Source of the DNA: Chloroflexota bacterium | Lineage (GTDB): Bacteria > Chloroflexota > Dehalococcoidia > Tepidiformales > Tepidiformaceae | DNA length: 64,000 bases | Assembly: GCA_026702615.1 (NCBI GenBank) | Contig: JAPPBY010000019.1 | Coordinates: forward strand, 1 to 64,000 | Direction of reading: 5' to 3' | Part shown: piece by piece, positions 20,592 through 60,308 of the stretch | Numbering within the stretch: position 1 is the stretch's first letter | Layout of the letters: the number at the start of each line of letters is the position of its first letter | The notes under the pieces: model-generated | What the model was told of the DNA's origin: nothing | The model's input: only the letters and a program-made list of their open reading frames with translations | The model's database searches: none | Program-made: the position numbers and the translations under genes

Positions 20592-20905
20592 CGGTTCACT
20601 CTCCTCCCGCCGTACACAGAGTATGCGGCCCGTACGGAAGTCGTTTCCTGACGGGGGCTTTACGGGCCCACGGGTGGGGCGAGGCGAAACGGACAGATGA
20701 GGAACCCGCTGTGGTCAGGGGTGGCTCACCAAGGGAGACGGTACGACGAACTTTCGAACTGACGGTGGCGCTGTAGGTACCGAGGCGCTTCGCCCACCGA
20801 ACGCTCTCTGCCACTGGACGGACATCGGTTTGACGCTCCGCTCATGCGAAGTGGGCTGCACTCGCTTCTTCGTGGTGCTCTCGTTCTGAGGGTGACCACG
20901 AGCAC
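20592..20905. other. Gap between lipoprotein and giant protease gene
   Basis: No gene was recognised in this 314-base stretch. The side next to the protease (about 20829-20905) is similar to the 3' flank of the RCC1 protein gene (about 29812-29884), including the GCTCATGCG and AGCACCTACT blocks, so the duplication of these genes includes some downstream DNA. The other side holds the promoter and GGGAGGAG ribosome site of the YbaY-like gene, with CATACT as a possible -10. No clear terminator hairpin with a T run was seen. Confidence 0.5.
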
Positions 20906-23900
20906 CTACTCTCCGTCGGCTGCGGTTCTCCCCACCTTCCAGCTGGCGGCCTCGGTGGCCACGACCCAGTAGGTCGTGCCAGACGAGAACGTGGTCAAGG
21001 TGTTGACGCCGGGCACCTCGTCCAGTCCGGGGAAGTACCCGAGCCACCGGCCTGCGGTTTCGTCCCAGGTGTAGACCGCGACAACCTCCTCCGGAAGGCC
21101 AGCCTCGCCGATGACGACGCCATCGGCGCCGGGCCACTCGAACGATGTCCACGAGGGGCCCACCTCCAGCTCCATCAACGCGGCCTCGAGACCCACGGAG
21201 TAGACCCTCGTGCGGGTGCCGTCGGCCGAGGTCACCGTGACGGTGATCTCCGAGAGGCCCGCAAGGGTGACCTGGTGGCCGTTGGTGTCGGTGCCGTCGG
21301 CGTCAGGCGGGTCGATGGCGACTTCCGTGCGGCGCTGCAACCCCCCTGCCTCGACGCTCGTCTCCGTCACGCCCTCGGCGATGACGCCCTCGTAGTCGGT
21401 CCGGTCTGGGTCGAACGTCCCGATGTCGATGCCGCTGAGAGAGAGCGAGGAGAGGCGCGCGTCAATGGCATCGGGCATGTTGTAGGTGTAGACCTTGCCG
21501 TCGCTTTCGTCGGCCACGTACATGACGGCGCCGTCAGACCAGATGCCCCGCGGGCTGTTATTGCTGGCCTGGCTGAGCTTCTCGAACTCCTCGTCCCTGA
21601 CTCGTTCAAGGCTGGCGTCTTCAGTCGCCGCTACCGCCTCCTCGCGGGTTGGGAGGCGGTAGGCGAAGAGACGTCGTGGGCTTGAGCCGGGGTCGGAGAC
21701 CCAGAGCGTGACGCCATCGGACCAGATGTCTGTGGGAGAGCCGTTGGCGGAGTCGAGAGCGTATTCGGCAAGAAGGTCACCACTCTCAAGGTCGTAGGCG
21801 AAGACGGCGTTGCGGCGTTCGTCGAGGACCCACATGGTCTCGCCGTCGGACCAGATGCCGCGTGCGTCGGCGTTGCGCTCGTCCAGGTCGATGTCGCGGT
21901 CCTCGAGGCGCTCCCCGGTGGTCAAGTCGTACGCGAAGAGCTTCTCCCGACCGCTGTCCGAGACCCATGCCACGCCCTCGTCGTCGGACCACACCCCACG
22001 GGGCGCCCGGTTGCGCTCGTCGAGCGCGAACTCGCGGTCCTCGACGCGCTCGCCGCTCTCAACGTCGTAGGCGTAGATGGCGTCGTCGGCGCCGTCTCCG
22101 TTGTGGAGGAGCCAGAGGGTGGCGCCGTTGGACCAGGAGCCGGTGGGGCGGTCGTGGCCGCTTTCGAGCGCCTCGATGTCGTGCTTCACCGTCCACTCAA
22201 AGTCGGCTGTGCTAGGCGTCGGGCCACTCGGGCCGCCGCCACCACCGCCACCGCCGCCACCGCCGCCACCGCCGGTGAAGATGGCGGGCGCGACCGTCAC
22301 CGGACCTTCCGTGACGGTGATCGTGATGCCGATGGTGGCGGAGGCGCCGTCCGGGTCGCGGACGGTCACGGTCAGCATGTACTCGGCCTGCACCGCCACG
22401 TCGAGGATGGCGTCGGTCGCCACCATGACTTGCCCGGTGTGCTCCTCGATCTCGAAGGCGTCGGCGCCAGCGCCGCTGAGCGAGTAGGACAGGGTCAGCG
22501 GCTCGTGGTCTACATCTATGGCCGTGAAGGGCGCGCCGACGAGGTCGCCTTCCCGAGCGGTCTCGCCGATCTCACGCTCGGTCGGCTGTTCCTCGAACCG
22601 CGGCGGGTCGTTCACGGACTGCACGGTGACGTACACGTTCGCGCTGACGGGGGCGTTCACACCGTCGGAGGCCGTGTAGGTGAAGCTGTGGACGCCGTGC
22701 TCGTTGGGATTGGGGGTGTACGTGAAGGTGTTGTCGCTCTCCAGGGTCGGGGTGCCCTGCGCAGGGTTGGCCCGCCCCAGCGCGACCGTCAGGGATACGC
22801 CTTCAGGGTCGCTGTCGTTGCCCAGCACGTCGATGGTGACGGGGGTGTCCTCGGGGGTGGTGGGGCGGTCGTCCCTCGCCACGGGGGGCTCGTCGATGTC
22901 GTTGACCGTGATGGTGACGGTCGTGCTGTCGCTCTCGTCCGAGGGGTCGGTGGCCGTGACGACTACCGTGTACGTGTCCTCCGTCTCCCGGTCGAGGACG
23001 GTTCCCGGGCCGACGCGGATCTGGCCGCTCGACCCGTCGATGGTGAATTCGGCGGCGTCAGGCCCGGACAGTGTGTACGTCAGCACGTCGTTGTCGGCGT
23101 CGGTGGCCCGGACCCGCGCCCCGACCAGCGTCCGCTCGGCCGCGTTCTCGTCGACGGAGCGGTCCATCGAGGGGCTGTCGAACTCCGGAGCGTTGTTGAC
23201 GGGGGGCGGCGCCTGTACGGAGCGGGCGGAGACCCTCAGCACGCGCTTGCCGGAGTCGTGCCCATCGGTGTAGTCGACGGTCACGCGCAAGGAACGGCCG
23301 ACGTCGTCGTCGACCGGGGTGTAGAAACCGCTGTTCGCGCCGCTGATTGGCGTCCACGTCGCCCCGGCCCCGCGCTCCCAAGTCCACGACTCCCCGCTGA
23401 TGCTGCCGTCGGGGTCGGCCAGGGTCGCCTCGAGCTGCGTGCCGACCTGGGGCTGTCCGGAGGAGAGTGTGAGCGTGCCGGCCTCGTCGACGTTCCCGAC
23501 ATTCACCGTCACGGCGTGACGCGCCGTGTGCGCCGCGTCCGCGGCCTCGATCGTCAGGAAGTACGATGCGCGGTCCTCGAAGTCGGGCGGCGCTGCGAAG
23601 GCGAGCGCACCGCCGCTGAACGTGAAGTGGGTGGCGTCGGCGCCGGCGAGCGTGATGATGACCGTGCCGCCCTCCGGGTCGGTGGCGCTGTAGTTGCCGA
23701 GCGTGCGGGTGTTCTCCTCGATCTCGAAGCTGGCGGGTCCGGTGATGACCGGCGGTTCGTCCACGTTCGTCACAGTGACGATGACGTCGAAACCGCCGTC
23801 ATGGGTCCCATCGGTCGCGTTGAGGGTGACGTTGAAGACGCTATCGCGGTTGGAATCGGCAGGGTCGTCATGATCGGGCACATCGGCGAAGGTCAGCTCG

Positions 23901-26900
23901 CCCGTGGTCTCGTCGAATGCGAAGTCGAGGGCGTCCGGCCCGGAGAGCGGCTTCCAGCTCGCGGGCTGCCCCTCCGGGTCGGCCTTGGTGTATGTGCCGA
24001 CGAAGTCCGTCGCGTTCTCCGCGATCGTGACGTGGGCCGGGCCACTGATCTCGGGCGCCTCATCGACATCCGTCGGCCGGACGAGCACATCGAGTCTGCC
24101 AACGAGGAAGGAGTCGCTGGCAAGGATCTCGACTTCGTAGACATCGTCATCGTTGGCATCATCGCTGTCCTCGTAGTTGGGTCGCTGCTTGAAGCGGAGT
24201 TCGCCCGAGTTCGCGTCGATGGTGAACAGCCCGCCATCGTCCCCGCCGACGTCGAAGGTGATTGCCCGGGTCGGCTCTTCCGGGTCGCTGGCCTGGTAGG
24301 TGGCAACCGCGCCCAGCCCGTCCTCGGGAAAATCGACATCCGCGGGGCCCGTGACGAGGGGCGGTTCGTCTACGTCCTGGACGGTGATGCGTACAGCATG
24401 CTCAGTGTGGCGGGCGGCATCGGCGACGCGGACAGTCACGTTGTATTCGTTGTCCTTGCCCACGTCTCCCGGTTCGTCGTAGTCCGGCGGCATCTTGAAC
24501 TCGAGGGCGCCGTCCGCGACCGCAGCGTCCTGTCCATCGTCCGGCGTCTCGTCTTCGGGGCCTCCGAGGGTGAAGGCGTCTTTGTCGGGCCCCAGGAGGG
24601 TGTACGTGAGGGGCTCGTCCTCGATGTCCATACCCACATACTCCGCCACGATCCCTTCGGAGTTCTCGAGGACGCTGACCTCGCGCGGCCCGCTGATGGT
24701 CGGAGCGTCGTTCTCGTTCAGGACGTTGACCGTCACGGTGATGCGGTCGTCGATCAGGTCGTTGCTGTTGCCTTCCACGTTCTTCCGGTCGCTGACGCTC
24801 ACCTCGACCGTGTAGGTGTCCTGTGTTTCGTAGTCGAGGTTGAGGGAGGCGCGCACCCGCAGTTGCCCGGTCAGTTCGTCGATCACGAACGGGGCGATGG
24901 GGGGCACGCTGTAGTAGAGCTGATCGCCATCGGGGTCAATCGCGAGCACGGGCGCTCCGACCGCCGCGGGACTCACCGCGTGCTCGCCGATCTCGCGCAC
25001 GCCCGTCTCGGTGGCAGGGAACAGGGGCCCGAGGTTCGCAGGCTCCGGCTCGGCGGTGATGGTCGCTGCACCGCCGGCGCCCGCCCTGTTGACCGCTCGC
25101 ACCTGGACGTCGTAGCGAGTGTGGTTGGCGAGGCCGGTGACGGAAGCGCGCAGGTCGCCGTCGCCGCTGCTCCACGCGGTCTGCCACCCGGTCCAGCTGT
25201 CCGCGTCGGCGACGCTGCTCCGGATGTCGTAACGCACGATGTCCGCGCCGCCGTCGGAGGCCGGCGGACTCCAGGTGATGGCAAGTCCGCTGGTGAAGGC
25301 CGTGGCGGCCATGTTGGTGGGCGCGCCCGGCGCCACCGCCACGCTGCCGACGTAGGTTTGCGACCACGGGCCGGCGCCGGCGTCGTTGTTGGCCCGGACC
25401 TGGATGTCGTAGCGGACGCCGCTGGTCAGGCCCGTGAGATCGTGGGAGAGGGCGCCCGAGGTCTGGGCGTCCGTGACCTCCGTCCAGTGCTCGGCGGCCT
25501 TGTCCGCGGCGTTGCTGCGGATATAGCGCAGGTCGTAGGAGGTAATCGCGGAAGCGCCGGTTTCGCTCGGGGCATTCCACGTGAGCAGCAGCGAGTCGGC
25601 GTCGGACGTCCCGGAGGGGGTCGCAGGCGCGCCGGGCCTCAGGCTGAGGCCATAGAACTTGATGCGGAACTCCCTGAACGTCCCTCCGTTGCCGGCAAAT
25701 TCATCGGTGATGTGCAGCTTCCAGGCGCCAACCGGGCTTTCGCCCAGGTGCTTCGCCGAGCCGAAACGGATCGCCCCGTCAAAGGCGTAGGGGCGGTCCA
25801 GGTAGTCTCGCACTTCGCCGGAGTGCGTCAGCAGGGACGTGGCGCCCGTGGGGGACTCGAGCTCGATTTTCAGGTCACGGAAGCTGTCGTGGTCGATCTC
25901 GGCGGTGATCTCCACGAACTCGATAAAGTCGATGCTGCTCTGAGAGATTGTGACGGTGCGCGTGTAGGGCGTGTTGATGACGGTGGAGAACCGTGTCGGG
26001 CCCGTCCAGCGCACCTCGTGCGTGCGCTGATCCTGCACGTTGGTCCAGTCCGCTGCGAGGTCGACCGCCGCGCCGGCGTCGACCACGCCGAAGCCGTACT
26101 TGTGGTTGAACGAGTAGACCTCCGTGTCGGAGCCATACTGCAGCGCGCCATCCTCCCAACCGCCATCGGACGCATCGTTCTTGCGCGCGGACGCGGCCAG
26201 GATCAGCTTCACGTCGCGCCAGGTGAGCGAGGAGTTGGCAGACTTGATCAGCGCCACGACGCCGGACACGATGGGCGCAGCCGCAGAGGTGCCGCCGAAG
26301 TCGCCCCAATACAGACCGGGCGTAAAGTCCGAGCCGTCGCCGTAGGCGTACAGCAGCGCGGCGGACTTCGTGGTCGTGATGAATGCGCCATCCCCGTGGG
26401 ACGGGGCGCACACCCACAGGTTGGCGCCAGGCTCGGAGTAGCGGCTCTTCTTGCCGTTATGGTCGACCGCGCAGACGGCCGTGACGCCGTAGAAGTTTGC
26501 GTACCCGTCCAGGTTGGCGTTGTCCAGGGCGTAGTCGTCCGGATCGCCGCCGTTGCCGGCGGCCCAGACGTAGGAGATGCCCCGGCCGCCGTCCCCTTCT
26601 CTCAGCCCTGTTTCGATCGCCGCGATCCAGGTAGCTTCGGCGGGGTGGGGCGCGCCATCATCCGAGAATCCCCAGCTGTTGGACGACACCTGCGTGCCCC
26701 GCCTGTGGCGGGTCATCGCATCCACCAGGTCGCGGGTCTCCGCCTCGCCTGCGTCCAGCCAGTCGACGAAGTTATAGCTGTAGATCGTCGCTCCGGGCGC
26801 CACGCCCCGGACACCGAGCTTGTTGTGCTCGGCGGCGATCAGCCCTGCAACGGACGTTCCATGATTCACCCAGAAGAGATTTGAGACGCCCCCCGGCACT

Positions 26901-28645
26901 CCGGTCCAGTAGTCGTAGTTGCGGCTGGTGTTCACGTTGTCCTTCAGGTCTTCGTGGTCGAGGTACAGGCCGTCGTCCACGATCGCGATGTTCACGCCCG
27001 CTCCGGTGTTCCCGCTCTCCCACACCTCCACGACGTTGATGTCCTCGCCGACTCCGCCGCCGAACTGGCCTGTGTTGTCGAGGTGCCACTGGCAGCCGTA
27101 GAACGCGTCGACGGTGTCGTCCGCTGTCAGGTCCATGCACTCCTGCGTGAACGCGGTGTAGCCCTCCTCGCGCAGAGCGAACAGGAAGTAGGCTCCAATC
27201 TCGCGCCCGTCCGCCTGCACACGGATGCCGTACGTTTTCCCCGCCTCTGCGGGTACGAGCGCGTAGTCCGCCAGGTGGGCCCGCCCGAAGTCGTCCCACT
27301 CGCTGTGTGGGATCCTGAGCGCGTCGAGGGTGGAACCCCCCTCGTCGTAGACCGTGATCCCCGCCGCCATCGGGTCGTCGATGAGCGTCGCGGCCGCGAG
27401 CGAGAGATAGCCGTCCTCCTCCGCCGTGACGCTGAAATAGTCGGCATCCGACGAGGAGGAGATGCGCCCGGGCGCGCCCGCACCGATCTCGATAGGCGTT
27501 GCCGTGCTCAGCGATGTCCCGGGGCTGGGCGCCCCGGCCACCATCATCCAGTACGGCCCCGTGAAGAACGACCGATTGCCGACGATCTTGATGTAGTACG
27601 TGCCGGCGGCGACCGTGCGCCGCAACATGAAGCCCAGGGCATTATCGAAACTGCCGAACGGGTAATGCTGGAACAGCTCACCGGCAAGGAAGAACCTGTA
27701 GCTTGTCTGAAGGTCGTTGCCGCTGCTGTCGAGGAGCTGGCCGGTGATGACCGTGTCGCTGAAGGCCACGACGTAGAAGTCGGTCGCCGTGTCAAAGTCG
27801 AGCTTGTAGTAGTCCGCATCGTGGCTGCTGGTGTCGCCGGGCCGCCCGATCCGCCCCGCTGTCACCATGCCGAGGTGCGCGGGAGCCGCCGAGGGGAGAC
27901 TGTTCCCCACGTCGTCGGGCACGAGCATCCCGTGGAGCTCGTACGCGCCCGTGGCGCCGCCGTCGCCCGTGACCTCGATGTAGTAGGTTCCGGCGTCCAG
28001 GCGGGCGCGGACCAGGAAGTTCCAGGGACTCTCCGGGAACCTGCCGTCGTTGTTCGACACCACGGACGTCCCATCGCTCGCCTGCAGCTCGCCGTGCGTA
28101 TCGAGGAGCCCGCTGCTGTAGAGCACCAACTCCCTCGTCTCGGTCACCACGAAGCTGAAGAAGTCCGCATCGGTGTCCGAGTGGATTCGTCCCGCCACGC
28201 TGGCAGTCGAGTCGCTCAGCGCGAAGCTGGCGGCGGACGAGCGGGTACTGCCGAAGTCGTCCGTGGCCTGGGTGGTCGAGGCTGACCAGGCGCCGTCACC
28301 CTCGCTGTTGACCGCGCGCAGCTGCACGTCGTAGCTCGTGCTGTCTCGCAGGTCCGGGATGGAGTAGGAGAGCGCGCCGCTGGTCCAGGCGTCCTCGACG
28401 AGGGTCCAGTTGGCGTCGGCCGTTTCGTCGTCGTCGGTCTCGATGTAGCGGAGGTCGTATGCGGTGACGGTGGCGCCGCCGTCGTCGTCGGGGGCGGCCC
28501 ATGTGACGGTGAGGGAGTCCGCTGCCGAGGTGATCGCGATGCTGGTAGGGACGCCCGGGATAGTCACGGTCTGCGCCAGGGTGCGGCCCCCCGGGAGCAG
28601 GAGGCCGAGCGCGGCGCAGACTGCGATCAGGGCGCCCCACCTCAT
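20906..28645 (-). CDS. Giant secreted kexin-like S8 protease with adhesion modules
   Basis: A 2579-residue exported protein. A signal peptide (1-24) is followed by a fibronectin III domain (about 30-128), three PPC-like beta domains (about 140-500), a subtilase domain (about 510-850), a P-type domain (about 860-1000), two fibronectin III domains, then about seven cadherin-like and one VCBS-like domain (about 1215-2115). A glycine tract (about 2120-2137), a WSDG-type propeller domain (about 2145-2390), a cadherin-like sandwich (about 2400-2495) and a W-rich C-terminal end complete it. The catalytic triad is Asp557 (VDDG), His595 (HGTSVAG) and Ser787 (GGTSAAAP); the VDDG form plus P domain points to the kexin/furin subfamily. 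No prodomain lies between signal peptide and catalytic domain. The gene start overlaps the upstream lipoprotein stop by ATGA. Confidence 0.85.
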   Translation of the reverse strand: MRWGALIAVCAALGLLLPGGRTLAQTVTIPGVPTSIAITSAADSLTVTWAAPDDDGGATVTAYDLRYIETDDDETADANWTLVEDAWTSGALSYSIPDLRDSTSYDVQLRAVNSEGDGAWSASTTQATDDFGSTRSSAASFALSDSTASVAGRIHSDTDADFFSFVVTETRELVLYSSGLLDTHGELQASDGTSVVSNNDGRFPESPWNFLVRARLDAGTYYIEVTGDGGATGAYELHGMLVPDDVGNSLPSAAPAHLGMVTAGRIGRPGDTSSHDADYYKLDFDTATDFYVVAFSDTVITGQLLDSSGNDLQTSYRFFLAGELFQHYPFGSFDNALGFMLRRTVAAGTYYIKIVGNRSFFTGPYWMMVAGAPSPGTSLSTATPIEIGAGAPGRISSSSDADYFSVTAEEDGYLSLAAATLIDDPMAAGITVYDEGGSTLDALRIPHSEWDDFGRAHLADYALVPAEAGKTYGIRVQADGREIGAYFLFALREEGYTAFTQECMDLTADDTVDAFYGCQWHLDNTGQFGGGVGEDINVVEVWESGNTGAGVNIAIVDDGLYLDHEDLKDNVNTSRNYDYWTGVPGGVSNLFWVNHGTSVAGLIAAEHNKLGVRGVAPGATIYSYNFVDWLDAGEAETRDLVDAMTRHRRGTQVSSNSWGFSDDGAPHPAEATWIAAIETGLREGDGGRGISYVWAAGNGGDPDDYALDNANLDGYANFYGVTAVCAVDHNGKKSRYSEPGANLWVCAPSHGDGAFITTTKSAALLYAYGDGSDFTPGLYWGDFGGTSAAAPIVSGVVALIKSANSSLTWRDVKLILAASARKNDASDGGWEDGALQYGSDTEVYSFNHKYGFGVVDAGAAVDLAADWTNVQDQRTHEVRWTGPTRFSTVINTPYTRTVTISQSSIDFIEFVEITAEIDHDSFRDLKIELESPTGATSLLTHSGEVRDYLDRPYAFDGAIRFGSAKHLGESPVGAWKLHITDEFAGNGGTFREFRIKFYGLSLRPGAPATPSGTSDADSLLLTWNAPSETGASAITSYDLRYIRSNAADKAAEHWTEVTDAQTSGALSHDLTGLTSGVRYDIQVRANNDAGAGPWSQTYVGSVAVAPGAPTNMAATAFTSGLAITWSPPASDGGADIVRYDIRSSVADADSWTGWQTAWSSGDGDLRASVTGLANHTRYDVQVRAVNRAGAGGAATITAEPEPANLGPLFPATETGVREIGEHAVSPAAVGAPVLAIDPDGDQLYYSVPPIAPFVIDELTGQLRVRASLNLDYETQDTYTVEVSVSDRKNVEGNSNDLIDDRITVTVNVLNENDAPTISGPREVSVLENSEGIVAEYVGMDIEDEPLTYTLLGPDKDAFTLGGPEDETPDDGQDAAVADGALEFKMPPDYDEPGDVGKDNEYNVTVRVADAARHTEHAVRITVQDVDEPPLVTGPADVDFPEDGLGAVATYQASDPEEPTRAITFDVGGDDGGLFTIDANSGELRFKQRPNYEDSDDANDDDVYEVEILASDSFLVGRLDVLVRPTDVDEAPEISGPAHVTIAENATDFVGTYTKADPEGQPASWKPLSGPDALDFAFDETTGELTFADVPDHDDPADSNRDSVFNVTLNATDGTHDGGFDVIVTVTNVDEPPVITGPASFEIEENTRTLGNYSATDPEGGTVIITLAGADATHFTFSGGALAFAAPPDFEDRASYFLTIEAADAAHTARHAVTVNVGNVDEAGTLTLSSGQPQVGTQLEATLADPDGSISGESWTWERGAGATWTPISGANSGFYTPVDDDVGRSLRVTVDYTDGHDSGKRVLRVSARSVQAPPPVNNAPEFDSPSMDRSVDENAAERTLVGARVRATDADNDVLTYTLSGPDAAEFTIDGSSGQIRVGPGTVLDRETEDTYTVVVTATDPSDESDSTTVTITVNDIDEPPVARDDRPTTPEDTPVTIDVLGNDSDPEGVSLTVALGRANPAQGTPTLESDNTFTYTPNPNEHGVHSFTYTASDGVNAPVSANVYVTVQSVNDPPRFEEQPTEREIGETAREGDLVGAPFTAIDVDHEPLTLSYSLSGAGADAFEIEEHTGQVMVATDAILDVAVQAEYMLTVTVRDPDGASATIGITITVTEGPVTVAPAIFTGGGGGGGGGGGGGGPSGPTPSTADFEWTVKHDIEALESGHDRPTGSWSNGATLWLLHNGDGADDAIYAYDVESGERVEDREFALDERNRAPRGVWSDDEGVAWVSDSGREKLFAYDLTTGERLEDRDIDLDERNADARGIWSDGETMWVLDERRNAVFAYDLESGDLLAEYALDSANGSPTDIWSDGVTLWVSDPGSSPRRLFAYRLPTREEAVAATEDASLERVRDEEFEKLSQASNNSPRGIWSDGAVMYVADESDGKVYTYNMPDAIDARLSSLSLSGIDIGTFDPDRTDYEGVIAEGVTETSVEAGGLQRRTEVAIDPPDADGTDTNGHQVTLAGLSEITVTVTSADGTRTRVYSVGLEAALMELEVGPSWTSFEWPGADGVVIGEAGLPEEVVAVYTWDETAGRWLGYFPGLDEVPGVNTLTTFSSGTTYWVVATEAASWKVGRTAADGE
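21156..21505 (-). repeat. 350-bp identical block, copy 1
   Basis: By eye, identical base for base to 30135-30484 (constant offset 8979). It encodes residues about 2381-2497 of the protease: the end of the propeller and the cadherin-like sandwich. Sequences on both sides in the two genes are alike but clearly diverged, so the identity stops sharply. Confidence 0.85.
22231..22276 (-). repeat. Poly-glycine codon tract
   Basis: A run of GGC/GGT glycine codons (CCGCCACCG units on the plus strand) separates the cadherin part from the propeller part of the protease. A similar tract sits at the same place in the RCC1 protein gene. It is probably a flexible linker and may vary in length by slippage without changing the frame. 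Confidence 0.75.
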
Positions 28646-29607
28646 CTCAGGACGACTTGGGAGCGCCAGTTGGGGCTGGAGATCAGCACCCCCTCCTCGT
28701 CGGCCAGGTCGTTCGCGAGCAAGAGCGAGGGCAGGCCGGGATCGGTCGAGATGAAGTAGGCGTTGGTGGCAAAGTCCTCCTCCTCGACGCGGCTGAGCGC
28801 GATACCGTTGGCGGCGAAGAAGCCCTTGACCCGGCTCTCATCCCACTCCGGATCGAGCACCAGCAGCACGCCGCCGGGCAGGGTCATCCGTCGCCCGGAG
28901 TCGTCGTAAAAGACGGGGGCGCCATCGGAGTCCGCTTGCGAGTCGGCACGCTCGGAGGCGCCCCCTTCGCCCGAGGCGCCCGTGTTTTCGGCAGGCCCCA
29001 GCCACACGCGCCGCGTGTGTTCGCCGTCCTGCCAGGTGTATTCGGTGGCCCCCTCGGGAGGTGCTCGCCGCGTGCCGTTGTCGCCCGCCGAGCCGGGACC
29101 GCGTGCGCCGGCCGGCAGCCTCCCCGCCGGCTGGGCGGCGCTCCCCCCGGCCGGCGTTGGAGCTGCCCTGTCGGGCGTTGCGTTCGCTGTCGGAGTGTCC
29201 GCCGGCGTGGTCCCCTCGCTGTTCCGACCCGCAGGAGAAGGGGTGGCGTTCGCTACGGGAGTGGTCGGCGTGGCAGTCGCGGCGGCACTCTGGCTATCGG
29301 GTACCGGGGTGGTCGGCGCCGGCGCTGCCGTTGGCGCCGGCGGCATCCCTGCCGGCGTGGCTTCACGCTGGCTGTCCGGTACCGGGGTGGCCGGCGTTGG
29401 TGTTGCCGTCGGCGTCGGCGGCATCCCTGCCGGCGCGGTTGCCGCCGGTTCGCTGAGTGTGGACTGACAGGCGACCAGCAACACCGCGGCGCCGAGCCAG
29501 AGAGCGACCATCGCGGGGGCAGTGGGGAAGGGAACGGACGGTCTTCTTGTACGCACTTCATGGACCACCTGAGTGGCCGTACGCCGACACGTCGAGGCTA
29601 GTGCCAT
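28642..29607 (-). CDS. Lipoprotein carrying a subtilase-propeptide-like domain
   Basis: A 321-residue predicted lipoprotein. The signal peptide ends in VLLVAC (Cys47) and is followed by a long Pro/Thr/Ala/Ser linker with repeated PVPDSQ and AGMPP units (about 50-180). The last 75 residues read like a subtilase propeptide (inhibitor I9 type): a GGVLLVLDPEWDES opening, the middle strand DFATNAYFISTD, LLLANDLADEEGV and an end SPNWRSQVVLR. Its TGA overlaps the ATG of the protease gene, so both are translated from one mRNA. The inference is that it acts in trans as a membrane-bound chaperone or inhibitor of the protease. ATG at 29607 is chosen because it gives a basic n-region; an ATG at 29511 is possible. 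Confidence 0.7.
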   Translation of the reverse strand: MALASTCRRTATQVVHEVRTRRPSVPFPTAPAMVALWLGAAVLLVACQSTLSEPAATAPAGMPPTPTATPTPATPVPDSQREATPAGMPPAPTAAPAPTTPVPDSQSAAATATPTTPVANATPSPAGRNSEGTTPADTPTANATPDRAAPTPAGGSAAQPAGRLPAGARGPGSAGDNGTRRAPPEGATEYTWQDGEHTRRVWLGPAENTGASGEGGASERADSQADSDGAPVFYDDSGRRMTLPGGVLLVLDPEWDESRVKGFFAANGIALSRVEEEDFATNAYFISTDPGLPSLLLANDLADEEGVLISSPNWRSQVVLR

Positions 29608-29771
29608 GAGACCGTCGCTCGCCCGCGCCGCTGCTGTCCGCCCAGCCAGGCGCCTGGCTGAGGTTGCTTGCCAGCTCACGTGCTCTCGCCGCCGGTGTCG
29701 CAACACGGGCCGTAAACGATAGTCGGATGATCCCTGGAGAAAGTGAGGGAGCTATAAAACTACGGTCTTAC

Positions 29772-29790
29772 TGCATGATATTTCTGTTAG
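29772..29790 (-). promoter_or_regulatory. Shared upstream element, copy A
   Basis: Read on the minus strand this site begins CTAACAGAAATATCATGCA. It lies about 180 bases upstream of the lipoprotein start and resembles a site at the same distance upstream of the RCC1 protein gene (34761-34779). It sits in the most AT-rich stretch of the intergenic region. It may be a common promoter or regulator site for the two large-protein transcripts. Confidence 0.35.
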
Positions 29791-29884
29791 CTCTGGGCTA
29801 AGACCTACTTGACGACCGGCTCATGCGGAGCGGAGTGTGCTCCGTGCTGCGTCGTGCTGTCGTTCTGACAGGAGCGTCAAGCAC

Positions 29885-32800
29885 CTACTGTTCGCCGGCG
29901 TCGGCCCAACCCGGCGTCCAGGTAGCGTCCTCTTCGGCGGCGACCCAGTAGGTGGTGTCGGAGGAGAACGCGGTCAAGGTGTTGAGGGCAGGCACGTCCT
30001 CCCGGCCCGGGAAGTAGCCAAGCCACCGGCCCGTGGTCTCGTCCCAGGTGTAGACGGCGACCACCGCCTCGGGGAGGCCGGCTTCGGCGATGGGCGCGCC
30101 TTCCGGTCCTGGCCACTCGAACGATGTCCAGGAAGGGCCCACCTCCAGCTCCATCAACGCGGCCTCGAGACCCACGGAGTAGACCCTCGTGCGGGTGCCG
30201 TCGGCCGAGGTCACCGTGACGGTGATCTCCGAGAGGCCCGCAAGGGTGACCTGGTGGCCGTTGGTGTCGGTGCCGTCGGCGTCAGGCGGGTCGATGGCGA
30301 CTTCCGTGCGGCGCTGCAACCCCCCTGCCTCGACGCTCGTCTCCGTCACGCCCTCGGCGATGACGCCCTCGTAGTCGGTCCGGTCTGGGTCGAACGTCCC
30401 GATGTCGATGCCGCTGAGAGAGAGCGAGGAGAGGCGCGCGTCAATGGCATCGGGCATGTTGTAGGTGTAGACCTTGCCGTCGCTCTCGTCGGCGACGTAC
30501 ACGACGTCGCCGTCGGCCCACACGCCCCGCGGGCTGTTGTTGCTCGCGCCGCTCAGTTCCGTGAAGTCCTCCTCGCGGATGCGCTCAAGGGCGGGTGGTT
30601 CCCCGGGAGCGGCCTCCCCCTCGTCCGGCAGAACGGGCAGGCGGTAGGCCCACAGGTCCTTGAGACCGTGATCCGATACCCAGACGGTGACGCCGTCGGA
30701 CCAGATGCCGCGAGGGTCGCGGTTGCGTGGGTCGAGGCTGTACTCGGTAAGGAAGTCACCACTCGTGAGGTCGTAGGCGAAGAGGGATGGGTTGCGGTTG
30801 AGCACCCACATCGTCTCGCCGTCGGACCAGATACCGCGAGCGTCGGCGTTCCGCTCGGTGAGCTCGATGTCACGGTCCTCGCGCCGCTCCCCGGTGGCGA
30901 GGTCGTAGGCGAAGAGCTTCTCCTGGCCGCTGTCGCTGACCCACACCACCCCCTGGCCGTCGGACCAGAGGCCGCGGGGCGCGCGGTTGCGCCCGTCAAG
31001 CTCGAACTCGCGCTCCCCGACGCGCTCCCCGGTGGCTAGGTCGTAGGCGTAGACGGCGTCGTCGGCGCCGTCGCCGTTCTCGAGCAGCCAGAACGTGGCG
31101 CCGTCGGACCACATCCCGGTGGGCTTGTCGTGGCCACCGGTCAGCGCCTCGATGTCGTGCTTCACGGTCCACTCGAAGTCGGCCGTGCTGGGGGTAGGCC
31201 CGTCCCCACCGCCGCCTCCCCCACCACCGCCTCCGCTTCCACCACCGCCGGGCGACCGTCGCGTCTGCCCACCGATCGTCACCGTCGTCTCGAACGCGGG
31301 TCCCAGAGTCACCCGGTCCGCCGTTGGCGTGTCGATGCTGATCGCCACGGTCTCGGCGTCGTCCTCCTCGTCGTCCGTGAGCGAACTGAAGGTGAAGGTC
31401 TGTTCCGTCACGCCCGCGTCGAAGACGAGCCGGCCCGGGTTGCCGGGGTCAGGCCACGCGATGGCGAAGTCGGCCTGGCTTGCGTCCGCGGGCGTCACGG
31501 TGAGCGTGATCTCGACTCGCCGCTCGGGATCCCGGCTCAGCACCACCGCGATGGTCCCGGCGTCGCCCTCCGCGATCGTGTAGGCGTTCTGCTGAAAGCT
31601 GACGGTCACCGCCGGATGGTCGTCGTCGACGATGCTGACGACCGTCTCGTTGGGCGTGCCCGCCGCGACCCCGGCGGGCAGGTTGGTGAAGCCGAACCTG
31701 ACCGACTCGCCGTCGTCGTCAACCGAATCCTGCGTCGCCGAGAAGCTGACGGTCCTGGTCGTCTCGCCGCTGTTGAAGGTGACATCGGAGGGGAAGCTGT
31801 AGTCGCTGCCCGACGCGCCGCCCTGGTTCGTCCGGCTCAGGGGAATCGTGACCGTGCGCTGCGGGTCCGCGCTCAGGTTGACCGTGACGCTCCGCGAGGC
31901 GCCCTCGTCCACGCGGTAGGCATCGCTGCCGAAGCTGACCGTGACTTGCACGACATCGTCGTCGGTGATGTTGACCACCGTCTCGTTGGTCGAACCGGCG
32001 ATGTATCCGGGGGGCAGGCTGCCGAGGCTCAGCCTGACTGACTCGCCCGACTCCACGGCCGAGTCGTCCACGGCTGTGAACGTCACCGTACCCAGGTTGG
32101 CCCCGCTATTGATGGTCACGCTCGCCGGCAGGGTCGTGTAGTCGGCGCTGGTGGCGCCGCCCTGGTTCGTGACGCTGACGGGAATGTCCACCTGGGCGCT
32201 GGCCGCGGAGTCCAGCGTCACCCTGACCGTGACGGAGCCGCCTTCGCCAACGGTGTAACTCGGTTGCGCGAAGTTCACGGTCTTCGTGTTGTCGATGATG
32301 TCGACCCGTGTCTGGGCCGGCGCGGTTGCTGACACGCCGCTCGGCAGCGCGCCCAGGCCGATCAGGACGCTCTCGCCAGCATCGTTGACGGAGTCGGGAG
32401 TTGCGGTGAGGGAGAATGCCTGCTCGGCCACCCCTCTGAGGGCGACCGTGGCCGGCACCCCGAAGTAGTCGTCGCTGCCGGCGCCCCCCTGGTTCGTCGT
32501 CGTGAGCGGAATCACGACCGTGCGCCTGGGGTTGGCGCTGAGACGGAGCGTCACGGTCACGGCGCTTCCCTCCGACACGGTGTGGCTGGCTGCGTCGAAC
32601 ATCACTGTCACGTCCGGGCGGTCGTGGACGGTCATGGCGTCCGCCGTCGACCAAGTCACGCCCTCGGGGAGCCGCGGCCAGCAGGTGACGGAGTCGTCGC
32701 TCCTGATCCCGCAGCTGTGCCGGTGGCCCGCCGAGAGAGCCTTGAAGGTTCCTTCAAGGGGGTCGGACTGTCCGTTTGAATTACCTCCCCAGCAGGCGAC

Positions 32801-34603
32801 GCTGCCGTCGCTCCCGAGGCCGCAGGTATGGTCGTGGCCGAGGACGAGCGACGTGAATGTGCCTGCGGGCGCGCGGCTGCTGGGACCCCAGCAGGTGACG
32901 GTGTCGTCCAGTGCAGTGGCGCAGGTGCGCTTCCGGCCCCCGGCGAGGGTCTTGTAGGAACCGGTCGGCGCACGGCGTTCACGGTTGGCATTGGTGCCCC
33001 AGCAGGCAATGGTGTCGTCGGTTCTGATCGCGCAGCTGTGGGCATCGCCCACGGAGATGGCCTTGTAGGCCCCCGCCGGGGCGTCGGCCTGTCCATCCCT
33101 GTTGCGCCCCCAGCAGACGACGGTGTCGTCGTTCCTGATGGCGCAGGTGTGGAAGTACCCGGTTTCGAGGGCCTTGAACGCGCCGGCGGGCGCGCTGGTG
33201 TACCCGTCCGTGCTCGATCCCCAACAGGCGATGGTGTCGTCGGTTCTGATCGCGCAGGTGTGGAAGTCTCCCGCTCTCACGGCCTTGTAGGTACCGGCGG
33301 GGTCGTTGGCCTGGCCAAACACGTTGTATCCCCAGCAGGTGACGGCCCCATCGAAGCCGAGGGCGCACGTGTGCTCCCCGCCCACGGACATGGCGCTGAA
33401 GGCGCCGGCTGGCGCATCCAATTGCCCCTGGTCGTTGTATCCCCAGCAGGCGATGGTGTCGTCGGTAGCGATCGCGCAGGTGTGGTTCCGGCCGCTCTGG
33501 ATCGTTCGGTAGTGGCCCTCCACTTCCTCCGTCTGCCCGAAGTGCTGGGTTCCCCAGCAAACGATGGCGGTGTCCGTCCGCACCGCACAGGTATGCAAGT
33601 CCCCGAGGCCTATCTCCGTGAAAGTGCCCTGGGGTGCTTCCGACTCCTCTTGCACGTTCGATCCCCAACACGTGATGGTGTCGTCCATCCGCATCGCGCA
33701 GGTGCGATTGTTGTGCGCCTTCACGGCCTTGAAGGTGCCCGTGGGGGCGTCGGTCTGCCCTGCTGTATTGACCCCCCAACAAGTGATCGTGTCGTCCATC
33801 TTGATGGCGCAGTTGTGGTGCCGGCCCGCAGTTACGGCCTTGAAGGTTCCCGCGGGCGCGATCGTCGCTCCACGGTTCAGGTCGTTGCGCTCTCCCGCGC
33901 AGACCATGGTGTCGTCGTCCTTGATCGCGCAGATGTGCACCGAGCCCGAGGCGAGCGCCTTATATGTGCCACCGAATGGTGGTGATGGGCGCCCGAAGTG
34001 ATAGCCCCAGCACGAGACGGCGCCGTCGGTGGCGATGGCGCAGGAGTGCTCCCAGCCGACCGCGAGGGCAACGTACGTGCCCTCCGGAGAGTTGAGCTGC
34101 CCCCAGGCGTTGTATCCCCAGCAGGAGATGCTCTCGTCAGCGCCAATCGCGCACGCGTGATTTCCTCCGGCGACGAGGGACGTGAACGTGCCTCCCGGCG
34201 CCGCCTCGACATCGCCGCCGAAGCTCTCACCCCAGCAGGTTATGGCGCCGTCGGTGCCGAGCGCGCATGAGTAGCGCGCCCCGGCATGGATCGACGTGAA
34301 GGTGCCCTCCGGGGCATTCACCTGCCCGCTACCGGCGCCCCCCCAGCACGTGAGCGTGCCGTCCGTTTCGATCGCACAGGTGTGGTAGGTACCGGCGGCC
34401 ACGGCCTGGTAGGCGCCGCTCTGAGAGGCGGCCTGAACCGAGGTGTCTCCCAGGGTGGCGGGGGCCGTCGCCATGGCCGAACGCCCCGCGGAGTCGAGAG
34501 CGAGCGCGGCAACGGCCAGCGCCGCCAGCATCAGGGTGGTAGCCGCCGCCACTGCCGCCGTTGGCGGCGTCGCCGTTCTGGGCCACCTGGCGCACCTCGA
34601 CAT
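29885..34603 (-). CDS. Giant exported RCC1-repeat / Calx-beta protein
   Basis: A 1572-residue exported protein with a hydrophobic N-terminal segment (about 15-37). Residues about 65-665 hold 16 repeats of about 37 residues with the pattern GTF-x-A-x-x-x-G-x-x-H-(T/S)-C-A-x-x-x-D-x-x-x-x-C-W-G, an RCC1-like propeller repeat with two cysteines each. Four Calx-beta-like domains follow (about 680-1130), then a glycine tract, the same WSDG propeller, cadherin-like sandwich and W-rich C-terminal end as in the protease. No catalytic motif was seen, so it is probably structural, adhesive or ligand-binding. It is alone on its transcript; an upstream element resembles that of the protease operon. Confidence 0.82.
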   Translation of the reverse strand: MSRCARWPRTATPPTAAVAAATTLMLAALAVAALALDSAGRSAMATAPATLGDTSVQAASQSGAYQAVAAGTYHTCAIETDGTLTCWGGAGSGQVNAPEGTFTSIHAGARYSCALGTDGAITCWGESFGGDVEAAPGGTFTSLVAGGNHACAIGADESISCWGYNAWGQLNSPEGTYVALAVGWEHSCAIATDGAVSCWGYHFGRPSPPFGGTYKALASGSVHICAIKDDDTMVCAGERNDLNRGATIAPAGTFKAVTAGRHHNCAIKMDDTITCWGVNTAGQTDAPTGTFKAVKAHNNRTCAMRMDDTITCWGSNVQEESEAPQGTFTEIGLGDLHTCAVRTDTAIVCWGTQHFGQTEEVEGHYRTIQSGRNHTCAIATDDTIACWGYNDQGQLDAPAGAFSAMSVGGEHTCALGFDGAVTCWGYNVFGQANDPAGTYKAVRAGDFHTCAIRTDDTIACWGSSTDGYTSAPAGAFKALETGYFHTCAIRNDDTVVCWGRNRDGQADAPAGAYKAISVGDAHSCAIRTDDTIACWGTNANRERRAPTGSYKTLAGGRKRTCATALDDTVTCWGPSSRAPAGTFTSLVLGHDHTCGLGSDGSVACWGGNSNGQSDPLEGTFKALSAGHRHSCGIRSDDSVTCWPRLPEGVTWSTADAMTVHDRPDVTVMFDAASHTVSEGSAVTVTLRLSANPRRTVVIPLTTTNQGGAGSDDYFGVPATVALRGVAEQAFSLTATPDSVNDAGESVLIGLGALPSGVSATAPAQTRVDIIDNTKTVNFAQPSYTVGEGGSVTVRVTLDSAASAQVDIPVSVTNQGGATSADYTTLPASVTINSGANLGTVTFTAVDDSAVESGESVRLSLGSLPPGYIAGSTNETVVNITDDDVVQVTVSFGSDAYRVDEGASRSVTVNLSADPQRTVTIPLSRTNQGGASGSDYSFPSDVTFNSGETTRTVSFSATQDSVDDDGESVRFGFTNLPAGVAAGTPNETVVSIVDDDHPAVTVSFQQNAYTIAEGDAGTIAVVLSRDPERRVEITLTVTPADASQADFAIAWPDPGNPGRLVFDAGVTEQTFTFSSLTDDEEDDAETVAISIDTPTADRVTLGPAFETTVTIGGQTRRSPGGGGSGGGGGGGGGGDGPTPSTADFEWTVKHDIEALTGGHDKPTGMWSDGATFWLLENGDGADDAVYAYDLATGERVGEREFELDGRNRAPRGLWSDGQGVVWVSDSGQEKLFAYDLATGERREDRDIELTERNADARGIWSDGETMWVLNRNPSLFAYDLTSGDFLTEYSLDPRNRDPRGIWSDGVTVWVSDHGLKDLWAYRLPVLPDEGEAAPGEPPALERIREEDFTELSGASNNSPRGVWADGDVVYVADESDGKVYTYNMPDAIDARLSSLSLSGIDIGTFDPDRTDYEGVIAEGVTETSVEAGGLQRRTEVAIDPPDADGTDTNGHQVTLAGLSEITVTVTSADGTRTRVYSVGLEAALMELEVGPSWTSFEWPGPEGAPIAEAGLPEAVVAVYTWDETTGRWLGYFPGREDVPALNTLTAFSSDTTYWVAAEEDATWTPGWADAGEQ
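30135..30484 (-). repeat. 350-bp identical block, copy 2
   Basis: The partner of 21156-21505, encoding residues about 1374-1490 of the RCC1 protein. Same orientation, 8979 bases apart, so recombination between them could delete the protease, the lipoprotein and part of this gene, or convert one copy to the other. Confidence 0.85.
31203..31254 (-). repeat. Poly-glycine codon tract (RCC1 protein)
   Basis: A run of glycine codons, with a few Ser or Pro, joins the Calx-beta part to the shared propeller cassette. It corresponds in position to the tract at 22231-22276 in the protease gene, marking the cassette boundary. Confidence 0.7.
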
Positions 34604-34796
34604 CGCCCCACAACCCCGTCGGGAGTGCTGTTGGCGTCGACGAGAGCGTCGATGTCGCGCTCGGCGTTCCAGTCGAACTCGACGCTGCAGGGACGCCCGC
34701 CGAGACGATAGGGAACTGAACCCGAAAAGATGTCAGGAGGCTGTGAGAGTCGTGCCCCCATGCGTCAAATATCTGTTAGACCCTCACGGGAAACAC
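34604..34796. other. Upstream region of the RCC1 protein gene
   Basis: No intact gene. A site at 34761-34779 (minus strand CTAACAGATATTTGACGCA) matches the element upstream of the protease operon. Nearer the gene, minus-strand codons at about 34610-34678 would read EFDWNAERDIDALVDA, which resembles the start of the shared propeller domain (DFEWTVKHDIEAL). This may be the remnant of another copy of the cassette; the match is short. Confidence 0.35.
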
Positions 34797-34955
34797 CTAC
34801 CCTCCGCCCGCTGCGGTCCTCCCCAGCCTTCAGGTGACGGCCCTAGTGGCCGCGACCCAATAGGTGGTGCCGGACGAGAACGCGGCCAGGGTATTAGGGC
34901 GGGCACGTCCTCCAGGCCGGGGAAGTACCCGAGCCACCGGCCCGTGGCCTGGTAG
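34797..34955 (-). pseudogene. 3' relic of a third paralog of the C-terminal cassette
   Basis: Clearly similar to the last 160 bases of the protease gene (from about 20906) and of the RCC1 gene (from about 29885), down to the position of the TAG stop (34797-34799) and the ACACCTAC context around it. The block GGGGAAGTACCCGAGCCACC is identical to the protease gene. A one-base deletion near 34898 shifts the frame, and the similarity ends abruptly near 34955, so only the C-terminal end of a lost third gene remains. Confidence 0.75.
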
Positions 34956-35264
34956 GGCTGACTACGGGTTTCACCCGCATCGACGGGACGGGGCCCCAGG
35001 CCCCGCGATGCCTACCCCCGGTGTCATGAAGGTGCCCGACGAACCTGGCTGCCGTGAAGGGTGCGACGTCGCGGCGCTGACCTCCCAGGCGGCGGATCTC
35101 GCTGCGAGTCTTGAGACCCCACCACTTGGTCACGGCTGAGATGTCAAGCTAAAGGCACCGCGCCCCTGCCGCGCTCGAGGAATAGGCACTGCACCCCCAA
35201 GCCCGAACCCTAAGGCTCATCCGGTGAGGCTTGCTCCGTTGGCGTGTGAGGGCAAGACGGGTGC
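34956..35264. other. Non-coding stretch between the paralog relic and tRNA-Asn
   Basis: No gene could be supported. A minus-strand ORF of 79 codons (34894-35133) crosses the relic boundary and has no recognisable family. A GC-rich hairpin lies at 34989-35005 (CGGGGCC-CCA-GGCCCCG). An imperfect hairpin at about 35211-35231 (AAGGCTCA/TGAGGCTT) sits about 35 bases beyond the tRNA 3' end and could end the tRNA transcript. No integrase or transposase gene is present. Confidence 0.4.
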
Positions 35265-35335
35265 TCCCCGGCGAGGATTCGAACCTCGAACCTAGCGGTT
35301 AACAGCCGCTCGCTCTACCGTTGAGCTACCGGGGA
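35265..35335 (-). tRNA. trnN: tRNA-Asn (anticodon GTT)
   Basis: A 71-base cloverleaf on the minus strand. The acceptor stem is TCCCCGG/CCGGGGA, the D arm contains AGCTCAACGGTAGAGC, the anticodon stem AGCGG/CCGCT closes the loop CTGTTAA with anticodon GTT, and the T arm reads GAGGTTCGAATCCTC. The 3' CCA is not encoded. It borders the island of large surface-protein genes, on the side of its 3' end. Confidence 0.95.
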
Positions 35336-46898: not shown

Positions 46899-46928
46899 TT
46901 GCGTACATACGTTCTAGTGCCGTAGCAT
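46899..46928 (+). promoter_or_regulatory. recA promoter
   Basis: TTGCGT (46899-46904) and TAGCAT (46923-46928) form a -35/-10 pair with an 18-base spacer. An SOS-type box lies within the spacer and -35. The transcription start would be about 20 bases before the GGGGAGA ribosome site of recA. Confidence 0.55.
46902..46915 (+). promoter_or_regulatory. LexA (SOS) box of recA
   Basis: CGTACATACGTTCT matches 12 of 14 positions of the Gram-positive/actinobacterial SOS consensus CGAACATACGTTCG form. It overlaps the recA promoter, as expected for repression by LexA. lexA itself is not in the window. Confidence 0.7.
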
Positions 46929-46957
46929 TGCCATCCAGCACACGGGGAGAGCACGAC

Positions 46958-48028
<1,071 letters not shown>

Positions 48029-52285: not shown

Positions 52286-54859
52286 CTACTCGGCGCGGAT
52301 GCGGGCGTAGCCGAGCACGTCGATCTCGGCACCGATGAACGGCGTCCTGCTCGCGTCCGGGAATCCCCAGGCCAGGATGACGTAGTCCGTCGGAGCGCCG
52401 ATCGCCCCCGGGAACCGGAACGTGACGGTGAACGTCCTGCCGTCCAGTTCGTACTTACTGGCGACAACGTCGCCCGGGTCGTCGAGGTTCCAGCCCCACG
52501 AGACGAGCGGAGGGAGAATCGAGCCCACAGGCTCGTAGCCATCGGCCGACATCAGTGTGAAAGTCGTGGACCCACCCTTTCGGGCGTCGGCCAGAGTCTC
52601 CCAGGAGAGAACCGCGTCGCCAAGCAGTATGCCGCTGAAGGTGACGAATCCGCCGTCATGGGTGGGGTGCTGGTCCCACTGGATCAGGTCGTGGCTGGTT
52701 CGGGTGACGCCCTCGTCAAAGGGACGGCTCTCGGGGCTGTTCAGAGCGCCGGACCAGTGCTTCTCGAGGATGGCCGCCTGGCTGTCAAACGCCTGCCGGA
52801 CCTCGGCGATGCCAGCGGCCTCACCGTCCTCGTCGGTCGTGAACGCCAGCCTGTACAACTCACGCAGTTTCTGCGTGAACGCCTCTCGCCCTAAAGTCTC
52901 CAGCAGTTCCTCGAAGAGCATCTGGCCGAGGAAGTAGTTGCAACCGTAGCGTCCCTCCTGCCCCGGCGATGGACTCCACTCCGTCAGCATCGCCAGGTCG
53001 TGGGCCTCGCAGCCGTCGCGGCGGGGCGCTACCAGCAGCCCCGGACTCACCGCGGCGTCCACTCCGTACAGGTACTCGAAGATGCGCGCCACGCCTTCGT
53101 CCATCCAACCGCTGTGGCCCCTCCAGAAGAAGTGGGCGATCTCGTGGACGAGGTTCGTTCGGAAGACGAGCGTGTCGTGTGGCGTCCCGTGCTGCTCGCT
53201 CTCCGACAGGAGGCTGAGGGCATAGCCGAAATTCGTTCCGCCGTAGTTCTCGGTGACGGCGTAGTCGTCCAACACGACGACGACGTGGTCCACGGGCAGG
53301 GGGCGCTGCATGATGCGCTCCACGAACTCCACCGTGTCCCTGACGTCATCCACCGTCGACGGTCGAGACTGGGTGCCGGTGCGGACGATGCTGATCTTGA
53401 GGTCCGGCGTTTGCTCCGTCGCCTCGAACGCCACTTCGGTGCGTGCGACACCGTGGCCCAGGATGTTGCGGATCGCGCTCGCGGTGCGGATCGTGCCCGC
53501 CGCCACGACGAGGGTCGTCTGGTCATCGGTGATACCGTCGCGGAAGTTCTGGTGCTCCAGCACAGCGTCCAGGCGGTCATCTTGCTGGAAGGCCAAACTC
53601 TGGAGGCTACGCAGGGCCAGTACATCGTCGCCCTCGACAGAAGCCAGGAAGGGCATGCCGATCACTGCCAGGGCTGCTTCCTCGCTCCAGTAGTCCAGCG
53701 AACGCAGCCATGTAAGCACCTCAGCTTCGACTTCGGTGATGCCGTCCCGGAACCATGGCAGGGCCACCACCAACTCGATGACGGCTGTACCGCTGGCATC
53801 GTCTTCATCATGTAGCCAGCTCACGGAACGGATAGCCCCAGCTTCCGTTGCCGTGACCCCATCCCGGAACCAGGGCAGGGCGATCACTGCCAGGGCACCT
53901 TCCTCGCTCCAGTAGTCCAGCGACCGCAGCCGTGTGAGCGCCTCACCCTCGACTCCGGTGATGCCGTCCCGGAACCACGGCAGGGCCACGATCGACTCGA
54001 TGGCGGCTGTACCGCTGGCATCGTCTTCATCATGTAGCAAACTCACGGAACGGATAGCCCCGGCTTCCGTCGCCGTGGGCCCGTCCCGGAACCACGGCAG
54101 GGCGATCACGCTGGCGGCGTCCTGCGCGCTGGCATAGCCCAGCCAGTAGAGCCACTCGATGGCGTCGGCTTCCCCATCGGTTACGCCATCCCGGACCCAT
54201 CCCAAGGCCAGAGTGGAACGCAGATTGTCGATGTCTGTCACGCCGATATACAGCAGGTTGTCAACGGCCGTGGTCTCCGTCGCGGTCACACCATCACTGA
54301 CCCAGAGCAGCGTCGTGAGCTGCCGGTGCAGGTCCGGGTAGTGGTGCTGCAGCCAGCGCAGGTTCTGGGTCTCGGCAAGCGGCTGCGACGGTTCGCCCGG
54401 CGGGAGCGGCACATCAAGGGCGATGTCGCCGTAGCGGAAGGTGCCGCGGCTGCTCACGCCGTCGAGGCTGAGGGGGATCGTGCCGAGCGTGGCCCAACTC
54501 CCCGTTTCGTGGCGAGCGCTCACGTAGATGCGGAGCGGATTCGCAATGTGCTGCCAGACGCGAAGCTGCACGGTTGTCGCCAGGTTCCCGGAGGCCAACG
54601 GCACTTCGAGCGAGGTGTCGCCGTAACGGAAGGTGCCACGACTGTTCTCGCGGTCGAGAGCGAGCGGGATCGTGCCGAGCGTGGCCCAACTGCCCTCTTC
54701 GTGGCGGGCGCTGACATAGATACGGAGCGGGTCTCCGATGCGCTGCCAGACGCGCAACTCGACGGTCGCGGTCGAGTCCTGCGCGCCGGCGGGAAGCGCC
54801 ACCGCGAGCGCGAGCGCCCCCGCAAGAGCGGCGATGAACCAGCGAGTAGCAGGAGACAT
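52286..54859 (-). CDS. Secreted zinc metallopeptidase with internal repeats
   Basis: An exported 857-residue protein. A signal peptide (1-26, ending PAGAQ) is followed by two copies of a 60-residue beta unit (about 29-150) with VWQRIGDPLRIYVSARHE. Then come about eight 37-residue helical units with the motif ALPWFRDGITxxE (about 165-470). The C-terminal half is a gluzincin-type peptidase: HEIAH at 572-576 and a WMDEGVARIFEYL segment with Glu588 or Glu595 as third ligand, as in peptidase MA-like families. The end is a beta domain. ATG 54859 is preferred, with AGGAGA-like context; an in-frame extension to 54988 would precede the signal peptide. Confidence 0.8.
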   Translation of the reverse strand: MSPATRWFIAALAGALALAVALPAGAQDSTATVELRVWQRIGDPLRIYVSARHEEGSWATLGTIPLALDRENSRGTFRYGDTSLEVPLASGNLATTVQLRVWQHIANPLRIYVSARHETGSWATLGTIPLSLDGVSSRGTFRYGDIALDVPLPPGEPSQPLAETQNLRWLQHHYPDLHRQLTTLLWVSDGVTATETTAVDNLLYIGVTDIDNLRSTLALGWVRDGVTDGEADAIEWLYWLGYASAQDAASVIALPWFRDGPTATEAGAIRSVSLLHDEDDASGTAAIESIVALPWFRDGITGVEGEALTRLRSLDYWSEEGALAVIALPWFRDGVTATEAGAIRSVSWLHDEDDASGTAVIELVVALPWFRDGITEVEAEVLTWLRSLDYWSEEAALAVIGMPFLASVEGDDVLALRSLQSLAFQQDDRLDAVLEHQNFRDGITDDQTTLVVAAGTIRTASAIRNILGHGVARTEVAFEATEQTPDLKISIVRTGTQSRPSTVDDVRDTVEFVERIMQRPLPVDHVVVVLDDYAVTENYGGTNFGYALSLLSESEQHGTPHDTLVFRTNLVHEIAHFFWRGHSGWMDEGVARIFEYLYGVDAAVSPGLLVAPRRDGCEAHDLAMLTEWSPSPGQEGRYGCNYFLGQMLFEELLETLGREAFTQKLRELYRLAFTTDEDGEAAGIAEVRQAFDSQAAILEKHWSGALNSPESRPFDEGVTRTSHDLIQWDQHPTHDGGFVTFSGILLGDAVLSWETLADARKGGSTTFTLMSADGYEPVGSILPPLVSWGWNLDDPGDVVASKYELDGRTFTVTFRFPGAIGAPTDYVILAWGFPDASRTPFIGAEIDVLGYARIRAE
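53660..54103 (-). repeat. Two tandem 222-bp repeats in the metallopeptidase gene
   Basis: Copies at about 53660-53881 and 53882-54103 are nearly identical, including the blocks GTACCGCTGGCATCGTCTTC and GCTCCAGTAGTCCAGCGA. Each encodes two 37-residue helical units. Recent duplication is likely. Confidence 0.8.
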
Positions 54860-57208: not shown

Positions 57209-57576
57209 GGGGCGTCCGGGTTCAGCGGCAGGCGTAGCTGGTCGCGCTCCGGAGCGCTGCCGGCGAGCAGGAGCTCGACGGCGGCGACCGCCGCCTCACG
57301 CTGGTCGCGAGCCTCGGCGCGGTCGAGCAGCAGAGGCGCCAGCGCCTCGATGGCTCGGGCGAGCTCGGGGTCTTCGGCGCAGAGGCGGTCATGCGCTTCG
57401 GCGGCGCTGAGGCCCTCGGCCCAGTAGCGACGGACGGCCGCGGCCACGAACGCTCCGCCCAGCACATCGACGCGGTCGCTTGCCTCGTAGCCAGCGTCGA
57501 CAAGGGCGCGCTGGACGATCTCGATGGCCTCGTTGCGGTCACGGCCGCGCAGGTCGAGGGGGCGGTCCTCGCTCAT
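57205..57576 (-). CDS. Hypothetical protein coupled to ligD
   Basis: A 123-residue helical protein with no family I recognise. It is rich in Ala, Glu, Leu and Arg with segments [20 protein letters not shown] and [16 protein letters not shown]. The ATG at 57576 overlaps the ligD stop as ATGA, so it is translated with ligD. Its stop overlaps the acsA stop. A role in DNA repair is possible only by association. Confidence 0.62.
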
Positions 57577-60293: not shown

Positions 60294-60308
60294 CGGTGAG
60301 CCCGGCGG

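Follow-up and report, generated by a model that had tools for sequence, protein, structure and literature searches.

A single C-terminal module is carried by many unrelated secreted bodies in the case of the T9SS CTD, PEP-CTERM and myxosortase tags. In the PE/PPE genes of Mycobacterium tuberculosis, the genes which convert one another are paralogous as genes. Gene conversion is well established in bacterial gene families, this set among them, where ectopic homologous recombination copies tracts between the paralogs of one genome without a dedicated enzyme (PMC12046097). The exchange of 3′ ends is likewise known for the meningococcal tpsA, a giant secreted-protein gene in which variable 3′ ends are joined to a conserved 5′ part by recombination with tpsC cassettes, genomic copies without a signal sequence (PMC3848433). 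A report on recombination in Bartonella henselae contains little on gene conversion (PMC3483213). A study on sponge-associated genomes describes cadherin and fibronectin III genes as enriched in, and laterally transferred among, these genomes (PMC8163846).

The locus considered here lies in a window of 64,000 nucleotides (contig JAPPBY010000019.1 of the Chloroflexota assembly GCA_026702615.1, positions 1 to 64,000), in which two giant genes, A and B, share an identical block of 350 bp. The favoured explanation, to which a probability of about 0.8 is assigned, is that unrelated giant bodies are carried on one C-terminal module and that RecA-type recombination copies segments between the genes, which recently made the block. 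The sharing of one tail by unrelated bodies resembles the T9SS CTD, PEP-CTERM and myxosortase tags, but the module of A and B is about 450 aa long, includes a propeller, matches no NCBIfam model when searched alone, and no dedicated partner enzyme was found for it. The copying of tracts without a dedicated enzyme is common to the PE/PPE genes, whereas A and B have unrelated bodies and only the 3′ module in common. As in tpsA, other copies in the genome supply a new 3′ end to a giant secreted-protein gene; unlike there, the partners are full-length genes whose bodies differ and whose common tail is homogenised. Attachment-type genes common to distant sponge-microbe lineages are also described in the sponge-symbiont study, which reports gene transfer (PMC8163846); the A/B set would add the re-tailing with the lineage's own module. 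The combination of unrelated bodies, a homogenised tail and the transfer of bodies across families without the tail was not found in the open-access literature searched.

The 350-bp block in genes A and B

Gene A (20906-28645, minus strand, as all features of the cluster given below) encodes 2579 aa, in which a signal peptide, read by eye, is followed by fn3, PPC, an S8 subtilase, a P-domain, fn3, cadherin/Big_9 repeats, a poly-Gly linker and the C-terminal module. The assignment of the protease to S8 relies on the match to PF00082 (E 7.2e-38) and on the D/H/S triad motifs read in the sequence. Gene B (29885-34603, 1572 aa) carries RCC1 repeats and Calx-beta repeats ahead of its own poly-Gly linker and module. 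The module, located at 20906-22273 in A and at 29885-31240 in B, consists of the poly-Gly linker, a beta-propeller, a PF12733 beta-sandwich and a small beta tail; PF12733 is the one curated Pfam domain in it. The homology of A and B around the block covers about 1.45 kb at 81.9% identity, from near the poly-Gly linker to about 75 bp beyond the stop codons.

The block lies within this homology, at 21156-21505 in A and at 30135-30484 in B, and the two copies match at 350 of 350 positions, which confirms the identity claimed by eye in the first-pass annotation. The sharp edges and diverged flanks claimed with it are also borne out by the alignment: mismatches restart immediately on either side, and identity within the homologous module falls to 76.0% in the 5′ flank (coding direction) and to 77.2% in the 3′ flank. 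The chance of 350 consecutive matches at 79% identity is about 10^-36, and the block is the longest repeat of the window, ten-fold above the next one (35 bp). It covers residues ~2381-2497 of A, that is, the last propeller strand and the entire PF12733 domain (residues 2398-2484), and residues ~1374-1490 of B (PF12733 at 1391-1477). A GENECONV-like permutation test restricted to modules of the window genome gives the A/B fragment a length of 207 informative columns (P<0.001), compared with 38 for the next-longest fragment, between C34a and C34c. Sharp-edged identity within an older homology, with a length beyond that expected from the polymorphic sites, is the pattern of gene conversion. The block is not an isolated cassette and is better seen as one event in an ongoing exchange of the whole 3′ module.

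Bodies and modules between species and families

All genomes compared are metagenome assemblies. In the sister species (G004, MAG IRC1_bin_31), the orthologs of A and B are A4 and B4. The codon-aligned identity of A and A4 is 95.7% before codon 2112 and 82.0% after it, and that of B and B4 is 95.3% before codon ~1082 and 79.2% after it. These change points fall at the poly-Gly linkers (22226-22312 in A; 31200-31360 in B, codon 1082-1083), and they are found again at codons 2112 and 1083 when third positions alone are used (block-permutation P 0.002). Such a fall at the linker does not occur in the isolated control ortholog pair C16/G4C6, so a generally high rate of change in the module does not explain it. 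The modules of A and A4 are scarcely nearer to each other than to paralogs, and the nearest relative switches between successive segments of the module, giving a mosaic. This is the relation expected under concerted evolution, in which the modules are about equally far from orthologs and paralogs while the bodies stay at 95% to their orthologs. The stretch of the window which carries the core genes pyrB, carA and carB is 94-96% identical to the sister species.

With zero differences in 350 bp, the two block copies have diverged by less than about 0.9% (3/350, the 95% bound), whereas the A and A4 bodies are 4.3% apart. This places the block event well after the species split and, if the rates were even, probably in about the last fifth of the time since then.

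Comparable tracts occur elsewhere. An independent tract is present in the MAG SB0662_bin_38, which belongs to another family: two different genes, each on its own contig, agree at all of 844 bp in the same module. Both copies lie away from the contig ends, and the sequence beside them is about 82-89% identical. Shorter tracts of 75 and 92 bp, the traces of older events, are present in the window genome. A second pair of near-identical tracts, with an exact run of 92 bp, lies outside the module on contig C34 of this genome, between L051 (11565-11903) and L052 (10806-11145).

Among the 393 genomes of the class which were searched, close gene A bodies were found in three genomes of another family, and L106, one of the two genes with the 844-bp tract, has a gene A body (94-98% nucleotide identity over the first 200 bases). 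Compared with genome G085, the window genome has 90.8% identity in the A body (83% at 4-fold sites), 73.8% in carB (54%) and 62% in the A module (51%), and the identity drops again at codon 2112. Every A tail is nearest to the modules of its own family, and a tree uniting all A-gene tails as one clade is rejected (p-AU 1.4e-6). Misbinning of the G085 contig is unlikely, because the gene beside its cluster shares 89% identity with G139 and 31% with the window's family. The presence of A bodies across families, joined to family-specific tails, thus indicates that bodies travel and tails are local. The transfer of the body without the tail is less clear for two other cases. The C16-type body in L105 is 85-95% identical to C16 across long stretches, and the best change point lies within the module. 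Most 100-bp windows of the B/B085 body are 71-94% identical, and the change point there precedes the GPxPS motif by about 74 codons.

At least eight copies of the module are present in the window genome, one of them split into different frames, in addition to a remnant at 34.8 kb. The bodies of the other module genes contain cadherin, SWM, Calx-beta, fn3 and Spondin_N domains; PPDK_N is also present in the sister species. The AlphaFold model of the module shows the propeller, the beta-sandwich and the small beta tail with a mean pLDDT of 75.8; the Foldseek matches are beta-propellers in general and give no function. The position of one common C-terminal module on many secreted-type proteins suggests a role in display, docking or export at the cell surface, and its lineage specificity would fit contact with the surface of the producing cell itself.

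The MAG series to which these genomes belong come from marine sponges. A tentative extension, rated somewhat below even odds, is that giant secreted bodies move between sponge-associated Chloroflexi families and are systematically re-tailed with the recipient's own module by homologous recombination, the module being a lineage-specific display or docking device and the linker in effect a universal splice point. Such an anchoring or docking module would explain the local tails on imported bodies. Symbionts could then share large adhesin-like or protease-like bodies across families, keeping the foreign front and using the native tail. The identity drop at the poly-Gly linker offers a testable rule for spotting exchanged surface proteins, and it also carries the warning that gene trees and short-read assemblies of such proteins mix different histories.

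Recombination and competing explanations

In the proposed mechanism, A and B are members of a set of secreted or surface giants whose unrelated bodies are placed on a common C-terminal module. The module DNA is homologous between the genes, so general (RecA-type) recombination could copy segments from gene to gene, and the block would be shared because the common tail segment is repeatedly copied. One recent copying event would have made the identical 350 bp, and earlier events would have left the mosaic modules and the drop of ortholog identity at the linker. Homologous recombination may act sometimes as conversion, as in the 350- and 844-bp tracts, and sometimes by attaching a newly arrived body to a tail already present in the genome. 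RecA is the probable agent, and recA is present in the window at 46928-48025. Non-reciprocal copying, not a double crossover, is the presumed origin of the block; the tract is about equally distant from A4 (81.1%) and B4 (81.4%) and so points to neither gene as the donor.

One rival explanation is an assembly artefact, in which a gap or misassembly put the sequence of one copy into both genes. The metagenome assembly consists of 38 contigs and the exact repeat exceeds the typical short-read length, yet sequences 22% apart are not normally merged by assemblers, the change points at the linkers are independent of the block, and similar tracts recur both in this genome (75-92 bp) and, at 844 bp, in the separate assembly, inside two contigs. 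Such an artefact is therefore considered unlikely. About equally unlikely is a recent partial duplication, or an unequal crossover in a tandem array, as the source of the block. The copies are in direct orientation, the gene order differs between the species (C-A-X-W-Y-B against Y remnant-B-C-A), and the 3′ untranslated homology downstream of A (20830-20905) is common to B (29809-29884) and B4 and absent from the ortholog A4. A single crossover, however, leaves one sharp edge per product, whereas here two edges lie within old homology and both full genes are kept. A crossover between the copies would remove gene C together with the A body and join B in frame to the tail of A, because the copies are direct and the frame is shared. 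The risk of deletion or duplication raised by the first-pass annotation is in this respect plausible, but the relatives examined for such rearrangements show changes of gene order and no such deletion.

In principle, strong selection on the domain, at either the nucleotide or the protein level, could also keep the copies identical without any recombination, and the block does closely match the PF12733 domain. This hidden constraint is refuted by the divergence of the other family members, all of which differ by about 12-38% in the same stretch, including just 81% identity between the orthologs A and A4. The stretch diverges there as its flanks do, for example between A4 and B4 (81.9 / 79.4 / 83.0%), so the block sequence is not constrained, and the probability left to selection is negligible. 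A dedicated system, that is, a site-specific recombinase, integron-like cassettes or a diversity-generating retroelement which swaps the domain, would agree with the coincidence of block and domain and with the placement of the cluster in a variable slot adjoining a tRNA-Asn gene. Against it, the neighbouring genes checked in the window include no recombinase, integrase, transposase or reverse transcriptase, and the tracts vary in length and place (350, 844, 75 and 92 bp), with edges which differ between cases. The block shows zero changes, whereas a diversity-generating retroelement would leave adenine-specific changes between template and variable repeat. A system of this type is very improbable. 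Of the exchange of a cadherin-like domain first proposed, gene conversion across the PF12733 region is the best-supported form, and the cassette form is unsupported.

A conserved element of 40-60 bp beside A (20713-20778) was considered as an attachment or recombination site and rejected, because it reads as the coding 3′ end of another gene, '...VRRTFELTVAL*'. A pattern search gave few copies of it, and it resembles the end of B in G139. The B homolog in that genome (L117, contig C64) no longer has the module; its end, '...VLRTFELVVDLR*', looks like an alternative tail, a short conserved remnant of which adjoins gene A and occurs in several relatives.

Gene surroundings and other features of the window

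Gene C (28642-29706, 354 aa) overlaps the start of gene A and travels with it, also across families. It has a lipoprotein-like N-terminus and, by eye, a C-terminus like an S8 prodomain; the Pfam search of this C-terminus gave no match up to E 10. From its sequence, it looks like a stand-alone lipoprotein bearing a subtilase prodomain and overlapping the protease gene.

Directly upstream of B (34701-34800) and of C/A (29701-29800) lies an element of about 80 nt (TAACAGAAAT...TCTCATAG..CCCTCACATCT...TTCAG...CTATCGT), which also precedes several genes of the set in the sister species and on contig C13 and is likely a common promoter or operator. The degenerate remnant of a third module, at 34791-34953, matches the gene Y region upstream of B in the sister species.

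The B-C-A cluster occupies a slot (20778-35263) bounded by a conserved YscW-like lipoprotein gene on one side and by tRNA-Asn(GTT), at 35263-35335, on the other. The contents of the slot differ among the relatives examined, with an LRR protein in the sister species and an RCC1-like protein in G003, and by this comparison it appears to be a variable-gene hotspot.

Further along the window, an ORF of 900 aa without a Pfam match contains direct repeats at 53650-54766, with offsets of 222 and 192 bp and 81-90% identity. A LigD-type ligase/primase gene (57573-61148, minus strand) adjoins Ku, and the two form a complete-looking putative non-homologous end-joining pair. A c-di-AMP (ydaO/yuaA) riboswitch is located at 61253-61397 on the plus strand, with a score of 75.7 bits.
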